13,395 bases of DNA from Rodentolepis nana (Eukaryota > Platyhelminthes > Cestoda > Cyclophyllidea > Hymenolepididae), in contig UZAE01013548.1 in assembly GCA_900617975.1 (NCBI GenBank), forward strand, positions 7,914 through 21,308. Reading direction: 5' to 3'. Positions 2,000 to 13,395 of the stretch are shown in pieces. A program made the position numbers and the translations under genes. The notes under the pieces are model-generated. The model was not told where the DNA came from, ran no database searches, and saw only the letters and a program-made list of their open reading frames with translations. The stretch's first letter is position 1. The number at the start of each line of letters is the position of its first letter.

Positions 2000-2268
2000 T
2001 TATATTAAATGGCAGGTTTTATGATGCTTTTCATTAGCCCTTTATTTAACTTCCGACTTCACAGAAGGGAGGAGCATCAAAGTCAAAAAAATTCGAGAGG
2101 GGGGGGGGGAGGGAAGGTGAGTATTGTGGAAGTGTTCGAATATGGCATACAATAAGGTTATGGTAGTTTGAAGTCCGGAGTTAACTACCGGTTTATAGAC
2201 AATTTTTTGCCGTATGGGTATACTTTGCCCAGGGTGCACAACATGGAGGGAAGTCTATCGTGCACTCT
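2000..2268 (-). mobile_element. Ribozyme-headed SINE, copy A (oldest-looking)
   Basis: Reads on the minus strand: 5' head at 2268, tail near 2000. It shares the whole layout of copies B, C and D: ribozyme head, GTTGAC/TTC stem arm, CATATTCG.ACACTTCC core, variable G/CA-rich segment, second stem arm, GGCTAATG.A, CCTGCCATTT and an AT-rich tail. It is the most diverged copy: two bases of ribozyme P1 and P3 are changed, the 3' hairpin is imperfect, and an 11-G run (2099-2109) sits in the variable segment. No clean target duplication is visible. The best is an 8 of 10 match between 1990-1999 and 2271-2280, so the left boundary is uncertain by several bases. Confidence 0.85.
2195..2268 (-). ncRNA. 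HDV-like ribozyme, degraded (SINE copy A)
   Basis: The fold is still readable. P2 (AUAGAC with GUCUAU), the P4 hairpin (GUAU, loop ACCC, AUAC), GGGCAA and the GGC catalytic-site motif are kept, as is the P1 3' strand GCACCCU. P1 has one A-C mismatch. P3 has lost two of three pairs (CCC with UGU). Activity is unlikely. Confidence 0.75.
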
Positions 2269-3393
2269 CTCCGTAAATATAGTGATTTTGGAACTATATT
2301 TGCGCATTTTGAAAAGGGGTATAAATTCCTAAACAATGGGATGGAATTTTCCCATGCCAATTTTTACTTAACTAAGGTCTGCATTCATTTGCATTTTCCT
2401 AATTAAGTTCAAATTCGTCTTGTTATGCACGTGGACTTGCTTATAACTTTACCAATTTCAAAAGGTTGGGTCATGGTACTGCTTCCAATTTTGTGTGTGT
2501 TGTAGAACTGTTTTGGACATGAGCTTAGTCTATTGGTTAATACTTCAATAGCAACGTGCAAGGGGGACGTCATTCATATTAGGTTGATGTTAAGTGTTTA
2601 ATGAACTGTGTTGCAATAAATGTACAAATCACCATGGTTTTATTCATAATTTAATTTTGACTTGCTCAAAATATTGTTAAATTAGAATTCATATTTGCTG
2701 GCTTTTGTTATTTAAGCAAATTGTTCTTATATGTGTGGCTGATTTTATAACTTTTATTTTCAAATAGAGTGTTATCTTTTCGTTGTTATTTCTTAGTATA
2801 TTGCCATGATTGCTAGACACGAATTTTGGAGCTGTCTGAGAGGTTTGACGTCTTTACTATTTTTAAATTGTGTCTTTCCTGACGTTAGCAACGAAATTTC
2901 ATGAAATTAAAATCGACAGTTATTTCGTTATTTTGTTTAGAGGATTAGAAGGTTAGGCTTGGTGGGATTTAAATGATAGCGAACATATGGTGATCAACCG
3001 CCCAAGTCATAAAAGTTTCATAACATGAATTTCCTTAAATCGCCTGTCAGTAAGTGGAGTGAAGAATTGGCTTGAAAATGGTGAATTCTTGAATATCGTA
3101 ACTCACTATTTTTCTGATGCAAGTTGCTCTTTCAGTGATTTGATCTAAACTCTCAGATTTTGACAATTTTTAAAAAAACTCTCTGAGCGGACATAAATAC
3201 TCGCCCAATCACGAGACCATGTGTAGGCATTCAGTAATTGTGGATGCGCTTTACTACCTGAAAACAGTGTACGGTTGGAAGCTTTAATACTTCCCTCTTA
3301 TTTTTTCAATCTATGGCTCACTCTAGAGTTAAATATTTTCGTAATTGTTTAAGTACTAAATTTTCTTCTTTTTTTTCAACAATCGATTGCCAG

Positions 3394-3762: not shown

Positions 3763-3776
3763 AGTAACAAAACATT
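3763..3776. repeat. Target-site duplication, left (SINE copy B)
   Basis: AGTAACAAAACATT, repeated with one mismatch at 4151-4164 on the other side of SINE copy B. A 14-bp duplication is the signature of target-primed reverse transcription. Confidence 0.92.
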
Positions 3777-3921
3777 TATTTGTTTATTTATATAAATTCG
3801 CAGGCTTTATGGGAGTCTTCATTTGCCCATAAGTTGATTTCAGACTTCACAGAAGAGGGGAACATTAAAGTCACAAAAAGTGGAGAGGGCGAAGAGAAGA
3901 GTGATTCACAGATGTAGAAGT

Positions 3922-3928
3922 GACAGAC

Positions 3929-3971
<43 letters not shown>

Positions 3972-3984
3972 AAAACAGACAGAA
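3922..3984. repeat. (GACA)n microsatellite inside SINE copy B
   Basis: About 13 nearly perfect GACA/CAGA tetranucleotides, interrupted by ATAG and by an A5 run. Copies C and D carry only one or two such units at the same place, so this is a local expansion after or during insertion. Confidence 0.93.
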
Positions 3985-4079
3985 AGGTAGAAAAAAGGTA
4001 AGGTAAGGTGATAAATGTGGAAGTGGTCGAATATGACATACGGTGGGGTCATGGTAGTTTGAAATCAACTGCCGGATTT

Positions 4080-4150
4080 TAGACTTTTTTGCCGTATGAG
4101 TATACATTGCCCAGGGTGCACCACGTGGAGGTAAGTCTATCACACACCCC
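4080..4150 (-). ncRNA. HDV-like self-cleaving ribozyme, intact (SINE copy B)
   Basis: Read 5' to 3' from 4150 (nt 1) to 4080 (nt 71). P1: nt 1-7 GGGGUGU with 32-38 GCACCCU, including the G1.U wobble expected at the cleavage site. J1/2: GUG. P2: 12-18 UAGACUU with 65-71 AAGUCUA. P3: 19-21 ACC with 29-31 GGU, closing a 7-nt L3 UCCACGU. P1.1: L3 C23-C24 with G39-G40. Joining strand GGGCAAU. P4: GUAU, loop ACUC, AUAC. Then GGC followed by A-rich J4/2, where C60 sits at the position of the general-acid cytosine. Every element of the nested double pseudoknot is present, in order and with ordinary lengths. Known HDV-like ribozymes sit at the 5' ends of R2, RTE and other non-LTR elements and process their transcripts there. 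The fold is seen directly by pairing; activity is inferred. Confidence 0.87.
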
Positions 4151-4164
4151 AGTAACAAAGCATT
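4151..4164. repeat. Target-site duplication, right (SINE copy B)
   Basis: AGTAACAAAGCATT, partner of 3763-3776. It starts immediately next to nt 1 of the ribozyme. Confidence 0.92.
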
Positions 4165-5211
4165 AAAAGGAGAATTCCATAATTAGTCAAGTTTTGCATT
4201 ATTTTAGATTACTCTAGATACACAAGAGGCGTCGTATTAGGTGTTGAATCATTCATTCCACTCAAATTAATCCTTCACCTTCAATCAATTAATATAAGAA
4301 ATTTTGGCGATGCAATCAGGGAACTGTGAGAGAAGGCTTTTCCAAAAAAAGCATAGTTTCAAATACTTTGTGCGTTCATTTTAAATAAGTAAAAAAAGTG
4401 ATGCGTACTTTTGCTTGAACTGGCAATCCCAAAATGATGCTTCGGCCATTGTTAGGAGCTACGTAATGAGTTAACCATAAATGGCGACTTCAAAGAGTAT
4501 TTAACATTTTATTGCATTAGTCCCTTGCCACCTGTATTTTATTTAAACTGATGTAATCGGCGAACTATCAACAGGAACTTTTAGTTACTTTATTATCATA
4601 CTTCCGCCTTCACTTGAACAATTTCAATTGTTTCTACTTGCGCCAGGGTAAGATGTTGGTCATGAGTAAGAATAAGTACTAAATTTCAGGAAAAGGAAGT
4701 AGATAAAATTGGGGATCAATAAGAAGCCGAGTATTAAAACGAGTCTTTCTTCATTTATTTTTTTTTGGAGTTGGGTTGCCCTGACTCTGAGTGGCAAATA
4801 ACTATTTAAGTAATACACCGACTCAACCGGTAACATTTAATCCTGAGAGAGGCTTTCATATGGTGTACTACTTAAAGATGTCAGTTGGTTTCCTTCTCTG
4901 CATGCGCAAATTTTTACCTGCCACTTACTCGTACTCTCCTTTCTAGTATTTGCCTAGCTAATTGCTCTCAACAAGCCGATATTCCAGCCAAAAAAAATGA
5001 AAATACAAGTTCTCGTTGATATAATGAAGGATCGTTCTACTTCAACTCCACCTAGCCACAGCATGCACCCTGCCAAACTTCATGGAAAATTAAAAAAATT
5101 GTCAGGCATTTTTTGTGCCTACATCAGTTTCCACTCATGTTTGGCCTTCGAACTACCCCTCACCCACCAAGATCTTAATCTGATGGGCTATTATTCATGC
5201 ATGCGTGGATA

Positions 5212-5213
5212 TA
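5212..5213. repeat. TA target duplication (mariner, left)
   Basis: The dinucleotide TA directly precedes the left terminal repeat and is matched by TA at 6522-6523, as expected for Tc1/mariner insertion. Confidence 0.85.
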
Positions 5214-5244
5214 TTGGGTGGGCAACTAAGTCATTGCCGTTTTT
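5214..5244. repeat. mariner left terminal inverted repeat
   Basis: TTGGGTGGGCAACTAAGTCA and following bases match the reverse complement of 6491-6521 at all but about four of 31 positions. Confidence 0.93.
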
Positions 5245-5394
5245 GTTGACAGATTCACTCTATACTTTCTTTTGTTTTGTTAACGTGGCCAGAGCATCTA
5301 ACCTTTATTTTTTTCTTACTGTATGGGCTTCTAGGTTAATTAGTAAAAATTTTTTTGCTTAGTTCTTTAGTTTTGTTTTTATCCCAATTTAAAA

Positions 5395-6447
5395 ATGAAA
5401 GAACAGGACGTGCACTTCCGACACATTTTATTGTATTACTTCCGAAAAGGCAAGAATGCATCGCAAGCACAAAAGAAGTTATGTGCCGTATATGGAGATG
5501 AAGCCTTAAAAGAAAGGCAGTGTCGAAATTGGTTTGAAAGATTTCGTTCCGGTGATTTTTCACTGAAAAATTCGCAACGATCTGGCCGCCCAGTCGAAGT
5601 GGATGAAACCCATATCAAGGCCATTATCGATTCAAATCGTCACAGCACAACACGAGATATTGCAGAGAAGCTGCTCAATGTGTCGCATACATGCATTGAA
5701 AAAAAAATTAAAAACCCTTGGTTATGTCAAGAAACTTGATTTATGGATCCCTCACCAGCAGTTAAAGGAAATTCATTTGACGCAACGGATTAGCATCTGT
5801 GATTCGCCGCTACTGAAACGCAATGAGAATGAGAATGATCCATTTCTGAAGAACCTAGTTACTGGCGACGAAAAGTGGATAGTTTATAACAATGTTAGTG
5901 GCAAGAGGTCATGGGTGAGGCAAGATCAACCAGCCCAAACAGTATCAAAAGCAGCAGAGATTCACGAAAAAAAGATTATGCTGTGAGTCTGGTGGGATCA
6001 CAAAGGAATTTTGTATTTCGAACTCATGCCGCAGAACCAAACGATAAATTCAAATGTGTATGTTGAAGAACTCGAAAAACTGAAGGATGCAATTGAAGAT
6101 AAGTGGCCGGCATTATCAAATCGGAAGGATGTTGTTTTCCATCATGATAACGCAAGACCCCACACATCTTTGGTTACTCGGCAAAAATTATTGGAACTGG
6201 GTTGGGATGTTTTGTCACACCCACCATATAGCCCTGCCCTGACCTTGCGCCTTCGGATTACCATTTGTTTCGTTCCATGCAAAACTCTTTAAATGGTAAA
6301 ATTTTTAACAACGCGGATGATGTCGGATCACACCTAATTAATTTTTTTAATAGCAAAGACCAGATATTTTAAGAGCGGGGCATTTTTACTCTGCCAGAAC
6401 GATGGGGAAAGGTCATCGACAAGAACGGCCAATATCTAATTGAATAA
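5395..6447 (+). pseudogene. mariner transposase (DD34D), frameshifted pseudogene
   Basis: Encodes the enzyme that binds mariner ends and cuts and pastes the element in the nucleus. From ATG 5395 (MKEQDVHFRHILLYYF) the N-terminal helix-turn-helix half runs through WFERFRSGDFS and RSGRP. The catalytic half shows WIPH, TGDEKW (first Asp), HHDNARPH (second Asp) and, after a frameshift, APSD (third Asp) with 34 residues between the last two: the mariner DD34D triad. Four lesions are visible. (1) A 1-nt shift at the A9 run 5699-5707 ends the first frame at 5739. (2) TGA at 5984-5986 lies before VWWDHKG, where the family usually has Cys. (3) A 5-bp tandem duplication GCCCT (6231-6240) shifts the frame just before the third Asp. 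(4) TAA lies at 6370-6372 in the C-terminal F-Y-x-x-G-I region. The reading ends at the normal terminus LPERW...NGQYL, stop 6445-6447. At roughly 350 codons it is otherwise full length. Confidence 0.95.
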
Positions 6448-6490
6448 AGTTATATTTTTAAACGAAAATTCCGAATTTGCCTTCTTATTT

Positions 6491-6521
6491 GAAATCGTCA
6501 ATGACTTAGTTGCCAACCTAA
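6491..6521. repeat. mariner right terminal inverted repeat
   Basis: Inverted copy of the left end; the outermost bases read inward as TTAGGTTGGCAACTAAGTCA. Followed by TA at 6522-6523. Confidence 0.93.
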
Positions 6522-8532
6522 TATGTCATGCAACTTTAACATTCAAGTTGAAGTTGACTTCGCTAAAGTCACAGTTATGAGGCATTCATCTAACTTTCTC
6601 TCCATTTTAACAAGCCTGAATCTAAGCAGATTGGTTAAATATTGGATTCATAGTTCTATACTGAGGCTAAAAAGACCTCATTTGATGGAATGTTTAATTA
6701 AATAAGATAAATGTGCTGTCGTTTTGTTCTTACCCTCCTTCTTCATTCTCTAATTTTAGCATTGTACTACTTCTCATTGAATTTCCCCTATCTAGTGAAT
6801 GAGGAGTCTAGTATCTAAACAGCGAAGGGAAGTGCTTATGTGCAATATTGTTCTCAACGCATTAATTTGATGTTGCTACTTTTGAATATTTGTTAAAAAC
6901 TGCTGAATTACAGTGTCACTGCCTTAAATCCCTGTCATTTAGACAATTACCTCTTACTATTGACTTTTTGGGGTTTTAAGAGAGGTGTTAGTTAGTATTT
7001 CTTTGCTATTGGGCAGGATTTGTGTTGATTAATTGAGAAGAAAAGAACTCAAAACGATTTTCGTCATTCGTCGTAGATCTGTATTCTCTCACTTTCCCCT
7101 TTTACTTGCCAATTAATGTGAGTGTTCCACGCGTGTTTAGGCATCCTCCTTATTAACTGAGAAATTTGAGTTACTATGCTAGTAAATCAACGCTCATTAT
7201 GATATTGCTATGGCTCCGCCCTTTGTTAGCTCTGTTTTCTTGTTTATTTTTCAATACTGGATTAATGTGTATTGTTGCACTAGTCTCTCCCCTTTCAAGA
7301 GAATGGTACAAATGGCCTCTCTTCTCCCTCTTTTTTTGCCATCTTCTTGTACGCCTAGGTTGTGATATCTGTATGTTTTCCGGTTGTCCACGCTTTTCTC
7401 TATGGGCGTAGTTCACTGCGTCGCTAACTCCACTTTTTCCAAATTCAGACTCCTAAATTTGCGTGTTCTTTTTGTCTGCGATGCTCCGAGTGTATTGGGT
7501 GGTCGAGCCATCGCTATAAATGTTCGATTTGAGACAGCCAATCGTATCCTTACGAGACTCTCGCTCAAGATTTTTAAACAATTCACTATTCTCTCTGAAA
7601 TGGGTTATTAAGAAACAAATTACGTCTTCTAATTTTCATAACTTGCATGCAATTAATTAATTTCATGCTAATAAACTTCGAATCCATGCTCTTACTTGTC
7701 AATTGTAGTAGCATAGTTGATACTCATGTTTTGGAATCTATATATTATTTGTTCCCTTGTGAAGTCATTAACTATACACTATTTTCTTACATTTTCAGTT
7801 TAAACATTTTTTGTTGGATATCTGTTGATTTCCGGCTTATTAAAACATTCTTGTACTAGGTAATTTATCGGACCTACCCCACACTTTTTAATAGCACTAA
7901 AATTGCGCATACTTTACATCATCCTCGTAAAGCACCCATAATTGATACTAATCCTCTTTTTTTCAAAGTTTCTTCGTTGTCATATCTGGGCTTGCTAATT
8001 GGTAGTTTGCATCAGTTTGATGGGCTAACATACTGAACGATGCCATTTGTCTGCCATCTTAGCAAAACCACTTAATAGGCGTGATAAATGGTGTCTAGGT
8101 TTAGCACTCCACTCGATAGACACTAATTATTTCGCTTGAGAGGTGTGTGTATTGCCTTCAAAGTTATATTTGAAAAGGATGAGGTGGATATGTGAGATGA
8201 AGACTCAGCTCTCGAGATGTGAATAGTTCTCGGTACTTGAAGTATTCCTTGAACCCTCGTTGCAAATTAATGCTGAAACAGTTGTGCTGAGTGCGAGTTT
8301 TTTTGCGAAGGAAGGTTCGCATTCACCTTTATTGCTATCTACGCATACTTCCTAGGCAAATATTTCACTTGAAGGAAAGTGTTTAGTGATTTGAGGTTTA
8401 AAAATAACCTCTAATAAATTTATATTTTTTATTAAAGTTTAAGAAAATTAAATCCCCCCCCCTCTCTTATGCCTTCTCTTTTTGTCTTATTGCGGTGGCC
8501 AGCTAAACAAACTTGGAGCTGGGGTTAAGAGA

Positions 8533-8546
8533 AGATGTGAAATATT
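8533..8546. repeat. Target-site duplication, left (SINE copy C)
   Basis: AGATGTGAAATATT, a perfect 14-bp match to 8846-8859 across the element. Confidence 0.96.
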
Positions 8547-8556
8547 TATTTGTTTA

Positions 8557-8580
8557 TATCAAATGGCAGGCTTTTTGATA
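8557..8580 (-). repeat. Conserved 3' hairpin of SINE copy C
   Basis: TATCAAA and TTTGATA form a perfect 7-bp stem around the 10-nt loop that reads AAGCCTGCCA in the element's sense strand. It lies directly before the A-rich tail, where reverse transcriptases of partner LINEs commonly recognise their templates. Confidence 0.75.
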
Positions 8581-8652
8581 GTTATCATTAGCCCCTTAGT
8601 TGACTTCGGACTTCACAGAGGAAGAGAGACATAAAATCGAAATAAGTCGAGA

Positions 8653-8662
8653 GGGGGGGGGG
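8653..8662. repeat. G10 tract inside SINE copy C
   Basis: A mononucleotide run in the internal variable segment of the SINE, at the position where copy A has an 11-G run (2099-2109). Confidence 0.85.
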
Positions 8663-8803
8663 TCGGAACAGAAGAATGTTTTAAAGATGTAAAAGAGGCA
8701 GACACAAAGGTAGATGAAAGGTGAGGTGGGTACTGTGAAAGTGGTCGAATATGACATACAGTGAGGTCATGATAGCTTGAACTCAGAAGTCAACTGCCGG
8801 TTT

Positions 8804-8845
8804 ATAGACTTTTTTGCCGCATGAGGTAAGTCTATCGCACACCCC
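8804..8845 (-). ncRNA. Remnant of HDV-like ribozyme (SINE copy C)
   Basis: Keeps nt 1-18 (P1 5' strand GGGGUGU, P2 5' strand), ACCUC, then GGCAAAAAAGUCUAU (catalytic-C motif and P2 3' strand). The middle is deleted, so P1, P3 and P4 cannot form and it must be inactive. Confidence 0.85.
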
Positions 8846-8859
8846 AGATGTGAAATATT
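8846..8859. repeat. Target-site duplication, right (SINE copy C)
   Basis: AGATGTGAAATATT, partner of 8533-8546. It abuts the first G of the element head. Confidence 0.96.
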
Positions 8860-11278: not shown

Positions 11279-12161
11279 GAAATGGCATGAGGCCTATAAG
11301 AGGTGCGGAAGTTGGAAACAAGGTCATAGTTGATGATGAGAGCAGACCACCATTTGCTCTCATACCTTCAACTTCCCTTCCAGCCATTGCTAACGCTGGT
11401 TATGTGGTCTGATCTGGCCAATGACTACACAGTTCGGCTTATACATTTGTCTACTATGTGTGGAACATTTGCTTCAGTTCAATCTAGGAGTTTTGCTCGC
11501 CTACTTATAACCCTCTTGCCCTTTGTTTCACCTCTCCCCTCTCCACCTTCTCCTCTGAGTCAGCAGCACCTTACTAACTTCTAGTGGAAAAGATTGATTA
11601 TGTTGGTAGAGGGGAGACAACAGTATCACAAAAGGAAGAGATTCATGGAAATTGGAGAACTCGATATTGAACTTGAACTTGGAGCCAATATGCATCTCAC
11701 AAGTCAGGGATTTAAAGTTTTATTTTTTTTGCTGAGAGAATGAGGAGATTCGAGCTATTAATTTTGGATCTTGTGGTTGCGTTATTCCCAGGGTATTTAT
11801 CAATTTTATCCGTCTGCTACCCCCACAGTTAGATATGTATGCTTCAAAACACTTCGGGCATGTTGAATAGTATGGAATGATACATAATGCGCTTTATAAA
11901 AAATACGGTTGCATCGGTCTTGTCCACTGTATCTTTCCAAGAATTGAGCAATCGGTTCTTTAAAGCTATTTTACCTACCTTGTTAAATGCTTAATAGAAC
12001 GTTTATGGTTTCTAATAGAAGGGGCAATAACAGTGCTTGATAAGTTTCACATACTTTACTTCCCACAATGCGGTTGAAAGAAGGCAAATAATAGATACAC
12101 TTCTAGATTTCAGCAGAGGAGTTATGTTGATTAGCTCCATTTCACTTACTCATTTCCTAAT

Positions 12162-12173
12162 CTTAAATTACCC
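12162..12173. repeat. Target-site duplication, left (SINE copy D)
   Basis: CTTAAATTACCC, repeated with one mismatch at 12500-12511. It ends exactly where the ribozyme head GGGG begins. Confidence 0.88.
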
Positions 12174-12246
12174 GGGGTGTACGATAGACTTACCTCCACG
12201 TGGTGAACTCCAGGGCAACGTATACTCATACGGCAAAAAGGTCTAT
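12174..12246 (+). ncRNA. HDV-like ribozyme, partly degraded (SINE copy D)
   Basis: Kept: P1 5' strand GGGGUGU, P2 (AUAGACU with GGUCUAU, one wobble), P3 ACC/GGU with L3 UCCACGU identical to copy B, GGGCAAC, P4 GUAU/AUAC and GGC. Changed: the P1 3' strand reads GAACUCCA in place of GCACCCU, with a one-base insertion. P1 therefore has a G-A mismatch and an extra wobble, and the cleavage-site pairing is uncertain. Reduced or no activity is likely. Confidence 0.8.
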
Positions 12247-12449
12247 TATTCGGCAGTTGACTTCGGACTACCATTGCAACACTGTATGTCATATTCAACC
12301 ACTTCCGCAGTACCCATCTTTTCTTTTCTCCCCCTTTTTGTCCGTCTGTCTATTTACATCACTTTTCTGTTATCCCTCTCGACTGTTTTTCACTTTGTCT
12401 GTTACTCCCCTTCATGAAGCCTGAAGTCAACTAAAGGGCTAATGCTAAC

Positions 12450-12473
12450 TATCAAAACGCCTGCCATTTGGTA
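12450..12473 (+). repeat. Conserved 3' hairpin of SINE copy D
   Basis: TATCAAA pairs with TTTGGTA around a 10-nt loop ACGCCTGCCA. The one difference from copy C makes a U.G wobble, so the stem still forms in RNA. Confidence 0.72.
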
Positions 12474-12496
12474 TAAATAAATAAATAAATAAATAT
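12473..12496. repeat. (AAAT)n tail of SINE copy D
   Basis: Five tandem AAAT/ATAA units at the end of the element, typical of short-repeat tails left by RTE-like non-LTR machinery. Confidence 0.9.
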
Positions 12497-12499
12497 AAC

Positions 12500-12511
12500 C
12501 TTAAGTTACCC
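12500..12511. repeat. Target-site duplication, right (SINE copy D)
   Basis: CTTAAGTTACCC, partner of 12162-12173. Confidence 0.88.
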
Positions 12512-13102: not shown

Positions 13103-13356
13103 GTGAGTTTGTAATTATGCCACTTAATCGTCCGATGGTGCGATTGTGATGGCTTCGTTTTGCAATCAAATCACAGCTAGTTCATTACTTGACTACCTAC
13201 CTTTCAATCCACTCGATTTAAATCCTTTTGTTGAATATTCCCTTGAATGGCAATAGTTTCTTCTTTTCAACCTCCTAGCTAGATGGGGTTTTTTACCATT
13301 AGGAAAAATGTTCGGTATTTTAAGTTTAGCAATGGAATAGTAGACGTGCTCCATCT

Positions 13357-13395
13357 ACTTATTTATATCAAATGGCAGGCGTTTTGATAGTTATC
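13357..13395 (-). mobile_element. Ribozyme-headed SINE, copy E (3' end only, cut by window)
   Basis: The A/T-rich tail and the perfect 3' hairpin (TATCAAA 13366-13372, TTTGATA 13383-13389) are followed by GTTATC, nearly identical to the tail end of copy C. The rest of the element, including any ribozyme, lies to the right of the window. Confidence 0.85.
13366..13389 (-). repeat. Conserved 3' hairpin of SINE copy E
   Basis: A perfect 7-bp stem with a 10-nt loop; the loop differs from copy C by a single base. Confidence 0.72.

Follow-up and report, generated by a model that had tools for sequence, protein, structure and literature searches.

A predicted HDV-like ribozyme heads a dispersed short retrotransposon and its likely LINE partner in a tapeworm

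The question raised by this locus is whether a 71-nt segment of the window (the whole stretch of DNA analyzed, 13,395 nt) is an HDV-like ribozyme and, if so, what kind of element carries it. The reading favored here, at a probability of roughly 0.8, is that a short noncoding retrotransposon begins with the segment, that these first 71 nt form a predicted HDV-like self-cleaving ribozyme, and that the ribozyme is shared with an endonuclease (EN)-reverse transcriptase (RT)-RNase H LINE likely mobilizing the short element.

Read from 4150 to 4080, the minus strand is GGGGUGUGUGAUAGACUUACCUCCACGUGGUGCACCCUGGGCAAUGUAUACUCAUACGGCAAAAAAGUCUA (71 nt, the ribozyme of element copy B, with G1 at 4150). 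Every helix of the nested double pseudoknot that the initial annotation had drawn was found in place: P1 pairs GGGGUGU with GCACCCU, P2 pairs UAGACUU with AAGUCUA, P3 pairs ACC with GGU, P1.1 pairs CC with GG, and P4 pairs approximately CGUAU with AUACG, the first P4 pair being U.G in copy B, with C60 located within GGC. When the window was scanned against 4,227 Rfam families, RF02682 matched over its full length at 4079-4150(-) (42.1 bits, E = 4.3e-5) and a second time at 12176-12246(+) (37.5 bits, E = 5e-4), and RF00094 reached only 33.2 bits (E = 0.12). No Rfam family matched anywhere in the window at gathering thresholds, the gathering score of RF02682 being 44. The Rfam models used contain P1, P3, and P4, and the pseudoknot helices were placed separately in the present analysis. 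Nested-only minimum-energy folding gave no excess stability for the 71-nt ribozyme (z = +1.38; copy D, z = +0.88); folding of this kind misses the double pseudoknot, as expected for any pseudoknot, and thus neither supports nor excludes the fold. RF02682 is the HDV-F-prausnitzii ribozyme, bacterial by its Rfam name, and the segment described here has the same helices, the same L3/J1.1-4 core, and a full-length match to the model, whereas the sequences of P4 and L4 differ.

The search was extended to the whole assembly (107,105,815 bases in 4,701 contigs). Of 25,212 first-look candidates, 61 were scored against RF02682 and yielded at least 59 matches for the assembly at E <= 0.001; 37 of the 59 lay above gathering, and the top score among the scored copies was 54.5 bits (E = 1.1e-7). 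The covariance-model search that had been suggested as a check was therefore favorable to an HDV-like fold, with the window match below gathering and other copies in the assembly above it. The same model gave no match in any of 14 control genomes, and a genome search with RF00094 at E <= 0.001 returned no match among 86 scored. An exact 23-mer from the ribozyme core had 5,897 occurrences in the assembly (3,008 + 2,889; reversed control, 0 + 0), and a 31-mer from the core, allowing up to 3 mismatches, was found at 15,713 places (7,865 + 7,848; reversed control, 0 + 0), counts that take in LINE heads as well as clustered units (arrays) and are hence inflated. For example, 6 clusters account for 18 places among the first 100 in the 23-mer list. 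Allowing for arrays, core density is approximately one per 7 to 8 kb of assembly. A scan of viral contigs with the core gave no match.

The flatworm origin proposed for this DNA agreed with the mitochondrial sequence of the assembly, as its COX1 gene (L093) is nearest to those of tapeworms; the host is called here a hymenolepidid-like tapeworm. The gene is open throughout under the flatworm mitochondrial code, as it is under the general invertebrate code, and its flatworm-code translation is closest among named sequences to Pseudanoplocephala crawfordi (86%) and Taenia serialis (84%), with 89% for the best match that bears no species name.

In this genome a dispersed, noncoding repeat of approximately 310 nt, with an AAAT-rich tail, starts with the ribozyme. 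To define the repeat, 41 copies shorter than 345 nt and starting with GG, AG, or GT were aligned, with longer copies containing internal duplications excluded. Not counting the AAAT-rich tail, their majority sequence measures 314 nt, and individual copies are 82 to 96% identical to it (median, 90%). A stopless sense frame was present in 0 of the 41 aligned copies, and the longest ATG frame had a median of 40 aa and a maximum of 75 aa; in the window, some stop-to-stop frames cross copies B and D. Rather than one copy of the element, the window carries five (Table 1), among them copy C, in which the ribozyme core is deleted (TTACCTC is joined to ATGCGGC), yet the 5' end still lies at G1. What had been suspected from the window alone, a short, noncoding, AAAT-tailed, SINE-like family, was thus borne out by copies that are dispersed and, in most cases, flanked by target-site duplications (TSDs). 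SINEs in the strict sense have a Pol III promoter derived from tRNA, 5S, or 7SL; in the window ARAGORN gave no tRNA gene and Rfam gave no family at gathering, and the label SINE-like, or SIDE-like, is preferred. A (GACA)n microsatellite inside copy B (3922-3983) looks as though it arose by expansion of TGTCTGTCT, a stretch native to the SINE. In one subfamily of the SINE (the L002, L004 to L006, and L008 type), the 5' arm (GTTGACTTCAAACTACC) is shorter and the ribozymes are nearly identical; these are perhaps the youngest copies.

Table 1. Copies of the element, the predicted ribozyme, and flanking duplications in the window
Feature	Position	Strand	Description
SINE copy A	~2000..2268	-	Repeat families; degraded head; without clear TSD (TSD score only 6)
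TSD, 3' end of copy B	3763..3773	-	GTTTTGTTACT
SINE copy B	3774..4150	-	Runs from the ribozyme to the AAAT-rich tail; (GTCT)n tract within it is expanded; exactly TSD-flanked
HDV-like ribozyme (predicted), copy B	4080..4150	-	RF02682, 42.1 bits, E = 4.3e-5; helices mapped
TSD, 5' end of copy B	4151..4161	-	GCTTTGTTACT; abuts G1; 10/11 letters the same as 3763-3773
SINE copy C	8547..8845	-	TSD AATATTTCACATCT identical (14/14) at 8533-8546 and 8846-8859
SINE copy D	12174..12495	+	5' ribozyme, (AAAT)n tail; TSDs 12158-12173 and 12496-12511, 14/16 alike
SINE copy E, 3' part	~13353..13395	-	Repeat families; extends beyond window

A reverse-transcriptase search of the assembly gave at least 150 matches (150 scored of 460). 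One LINE family accounted for 20 of 30 examined loci, including L039, with RT stretches approximately 87 to 95% identical to that of L039. Pfam searches of locus L075 revealed, in order, an Exo_endo_phos_2 endonuclease (PF14529, 58.2 bits), RVT_1 (PF00078, 87.2 bits), and RNase H (PF00075, 22.1 bits, under the cut-off); RVT_1 scored 134.4 bits in L039, and RNase H scored 55.1 bits, above the cut-off, in L079. An APE-like EN together with RT and RNase H is, judged by domain content only, the domain set of an I/ingi-type LINE. Among named matches to the LINE RT, the best were proteins of Rodentolepis nana, with 89% identity across 62% of the query, and of Hymenolepis microstoma, with 74% across 65%. 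Two other identities were considered. An RTE partner was set aside since the LINE has RNase H, which RTE elements are not known to have, and an R2 identity is contradicted by varied flanks that do not fit 28S site-specific insertion.

The LINE and the SINE resemble each other at both ends. At its 3' end the LINE (letters AAGGGCTAATGATAAATATCATAAAGCCTGCCATTTGAAATAAATAAAT) resembles the last 45 to 75 nt of the SINE, with approximately 72 to 88% identity depending on the copies compared. Its 5' end begins with the ribozyme, followed by an untranslated region of its own and, in L075, by the endonuclease frame (L075:1975-). A query combining ribozyme nt 23 to 71 with adjoining LINE sequence was spanned nearly whole at 40 of 40 scored places (of 1,648 candidates), a result that is partly by construction, as the query itself contained that part of the ribozyme. 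All 12 LINE heads examined from those places matched RF02682 at scores below gathering (E between 2.6e-4 and 0.056), and their upstream flanks differ by eye. A SIDE takes both its ends from the LINE and lacks the LINE interior, with nothing foreign added; here the SINE ends match the LINE ends, and the SINE middle (approximately nt 100 to 260) could not be clearly matched to any of nine LINE loci, none of them complete, apart from inserted SINEs and short words. Internal deletion of a LINE is thus not an obvious origin for the SINE. The EN-RT-RNase H LINE, which has the SINE's ribozyme at its 5' end and a 3' end in common with it, is likely the autonomous partner of the SINE. In the LINE 3' untranslated region (e.g., L039, approximately 2999 to 3025), most of eight tails have a C-run and then a G-run just upstream of the common tail, likely forming a strong hairpin.

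The SINE can also be drawn with a predicted panhandle, in which AGTTGACTTC directly after the ribozyme pairs with GAAGTCAACT directly before the tail. In the alignment, 94.0% of panhandle cells were paired versus 16 to 41% when the strands were slid, but 211 of 500 shuffles scored as high, making this a lead only, and copy D folded alone did not adopt it. The LINE has a counterpart: 10 of 13 heads (L075 and L081 to L092) carry TTTGACTTC and all 8 distinct tails carry GAAGTCAAA, and one compensatory G-C to U-A change separates the two families. The panhandle, if real, could bring a cleaved 5' end near the tail.

Because HDV-like ribozymes are predicted to cleave just upstream of G1, the position of TSDs relative to G1 was determined in 65 heads from the window and 37 other loci (L001 was excluded as a duplicate of copy B). 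Fifty-one heads were usable; the remaining 14, including window copy B, were dropped because their own 3' end was missing or the flank was too short. At a score threshold of 9 or more, with ties assigned to the offset nearest 0 in real and mispaired sets alike, a clear TSD was present in 35 of the 51 copies, and in 35 of 35 its 5' copy ended between -2 and +1 of G1 (-2 in 4, -1 in 4, 0 in 24, and +1 in 3). The other 16 had no duplication at this threshold. In a mispaired control, where the 5' flank of one copy was compared to the 3' flank of another, 27 of 493 pairings passed, with 9 falling within -2 to +1. Upstream of G1, the sequence varies between copies (by eye). TSDs ending at the ribozyme G1 place the 5' end of the element at the predicted HDV-like cleavage site and lend indirect support to self-cleavage there.

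This boundary suggests a route by which the element could move. It would be transcribed from an internal promoter or as a segment of a longer host RNA, and the predicted ribozyme would cut just upstream of G1, freeing an exact 5' end. The LINE enzyme could then recognize the common 3' tail (a small hairpin plus AAAT repeats) in trans, and target-primed reverse transcription at a nicked target would copy the RNA up to the freed 5' end, with insertion producing duplications of approximately 11 to 17 nt. With the ribozyme carried in the RNA that is copied, each insertion would set its own 5' end and need no promoter upstream.

Transcription starting at G1 would yield an identical boundary, and the head could instead be kept mainly as an internal promoter, with the fold as a by-product or second role. 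Such a combination has a precedent in the trypanosomatid Pr77, described in the available text of PMC4035085 as a promoter at the DNA level and a ribozyme at the RNA level. We consider this explanation improbable here, as conservation in the head falls on the letters of the HDV-like fold (L3, P1.1, J4/2, and C60), the head matches a model built from a bacterial ribozyme, and scans of the window gave neither a tRNA gene nor an Rfam family at gathering.

How well the predicted self-cleaving fold is kept was assessed in an alignment of 74 of 87 collected heads, after exclusion of 8 array units, 3 repeats of kept rows, and 2 degraded heads (L075:219-294 and L084:483-558). Since aligned heads were selected by resemblance to the ribozyme, the conservation figures are biased upward and represent upper estimates. 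C60 was kept in 70 of 74 heads, and paired helix cells made up 90.9% in P1, 89.0% in P2, 98.1% in P3, 97.2% in P1.1, and 95.3% in P4. Total pairing was 92.7% and fell to 30 to 52% when 3' strands were slid by 1 to 3 columns. Fourteen sites vary in at least 10% of heads, six of them in J1/2, L4, or J1.1/4 and eight in helices. Helix variants include wobbles as well as changes that abolish a pair, among the latter a U18-to-C change, found in 18 of 74 heads, which disrupts the last P2 pair. The covariation score was matched by 37 of 500 shuffles and the number of double-sided pair changes by 95 of 500, and copies this alike make within-family covariation uninformative on the fold. In the test of pairing envisaged in the initial annotation, P1 and P2 are largely paired, and covariation does not clearly exceed shuffles. 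The kept pairing is itself weak evidence, the copies being too alike for covariation and picked for similarity.

All pairs were intact in 20 of the 74 heads and at least one helix cell was unpaired in 54, and these breaks, together with the loss of the core in copy C, could indicate that the head is an inactive relic of the LINE ribozyme carried along in the SINE. This is very unlikely, given that every helix of the nested double pseudoknot pairs in the majority head sequence, with C60 present, that the breaks are scattered over single copies, and that TSDs abut G1 in 35 of 35 copies showing one. Chance similarity in a repeat with no ribozyme history, to which a window match just under gathering and the silence of RF00094 in the genome might point, is extremely improbable in view of the best assembly copies (54.5 bits, E = 1.1e-7) and a 5' boundary at the predicted cleavage site.

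A predicted self-cleaving head common to a LINE and a short element has parallels in other organisms. According to the available portions of PMC3414825, Drosophila R2 SIDE and R2/R1 SIDE are also short and noncoding, with a 5' HDV-like ribozyme and a LINE 3' end, and are moved in trans. R2 SIDEs occupy 28S rDNA and are called rare in that text, whereas the tapeworm family is dispersed and has thousands of copies, and unlike the R2 SIDE partner, the tapeworm LINE has an Exo_endo_phos-type endonuclease and RNase H. The L1Tc/NARTc and ingi/RIME systems of Trypanosoma cruzi and T. brucei likewise combine an EN-RT-RNase H LINE with a short nonautonomous element having a common 5' ribozyme (PMC4035085, in the text available). 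Cleavage has been measured in both trypanosomatid systems (PMC4035085) and in Drosophila R2 SIDEs (PMC3414825), as reported in the accessible parts of these papers. NARTc and RIME are truncated LINEs in that account (PMC4035085), unlike the tapeworm SINE, most of whose body (approximately nt 100 to 260) could not be clearly matched to the nine LINE loci compared. The present host, unlike that of L1Tc/NARTc, is an animal, and the LINE/SINE pair would be an animal counterpart of that trypanosomatid system.

Ribozyme-bearing SINEs are already represented in flatworms by Sm-alpha of schistosomes, which carries a hammerhead. The tapeworm element, unlike hammerhead elements, carries a different ribozyme class, and no hammerhead motif was matched in the window in Rfam scans at gathering or by E value. 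It shares with hammerhead SINEs and metazoan retrozymes the character of a small noncoding ribozyme-bearing animal repeat; for retrozymes, a route through PLE machinery and circular RNAs has been proposed (PMC7761336, available text). Flatworm R2 elements are known, and the accessible text of two papers that describe them mentions no ribozyme in a flatworm element (PMC5035012, PMC13188248). The initial annotation regarded the family as undescribed, and among the matches listed from the open-licence literature, in the portions of text available, no published description of an HDV-like ribozyme in a tapeworm retroelement was found; the claim is tempered by the parallels with NARTc/RIME (PMC4035085) and R2 SIDEs (PMC3414825). 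The present data put a predicted HDV-like ribozyme on both the LINE and the SINE of a tapeworm genome at high copy number, in an architecture that has known parallels. In H. microstoma, 14.8% of repetitive sequence is unclassified (PMC7653826, available text), and we infer that the LINE/SINE family may account for part of such unclassified hymenolepidid repeats. The thousands of natural variants could be used to map which ribozyme changes are tolerated while the element still jumps, and the family bears on whether self-cleavage or an internal promoter defines retrotransposon 5' ends.

Some places contain two to six ribozyme units spaced 40 to 120 nt apart. The composite heads at L016 and L069 to L074 contain repeated ribozyme pieces, some mixing SINE-type and LINE-type letters. 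The L071 head was 99 to 100% identical at 40 of 40 scored places (of 2,816 candidates), 34 of the 40 on one strand, and heads of this type resemble each other far more closely than ordinary copies do. In L027, one SNP is present in both units and absent from L069 and L070. This near-identity and the shared SNP suggest that L071-type composites stem from assembly or from the filling of gaps where a word is extremely frequent; single-N joins occur in many loci, one of them within a ribozyme (L036). Both units of the L074 head were spanned at 87 to 100% identity in 31 of 40 scored places, six of which continue into LINE sequence. The L016 element, which has an exact 14-nt TSD at G1, includes three diverged pieces of ribozyme. 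On the strength of this recurrence and of the TSD-flanked L016, some composite heads are probably real, and others are possibly assembly artifacts. Duplicated body segments were also present in other TSD-flanked copies (L003, L011, L020, and L035). A tentative and rather doubtful explanation is that the composites at L016 and L069 to L074 are retrotransposition products, in which template jumps from LINE to SINE RNA or back would have added pieces and kept G1 and one complete core; each composite would still be a single HDV-like ribozyme, its internal loops greatly enlarged, and the composites would have spread as subfamilies. If true, composites would show the origin of the large variable J1/2 loops in R2-type ribozymes.

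The window also contains a degenerate mariner element (5208-6527), with Mos1-type HTH_48 and Transposase_1 pieces in separate frames, bounded by 36-nt inverted repeats that are alike at 31 of 36 positions.
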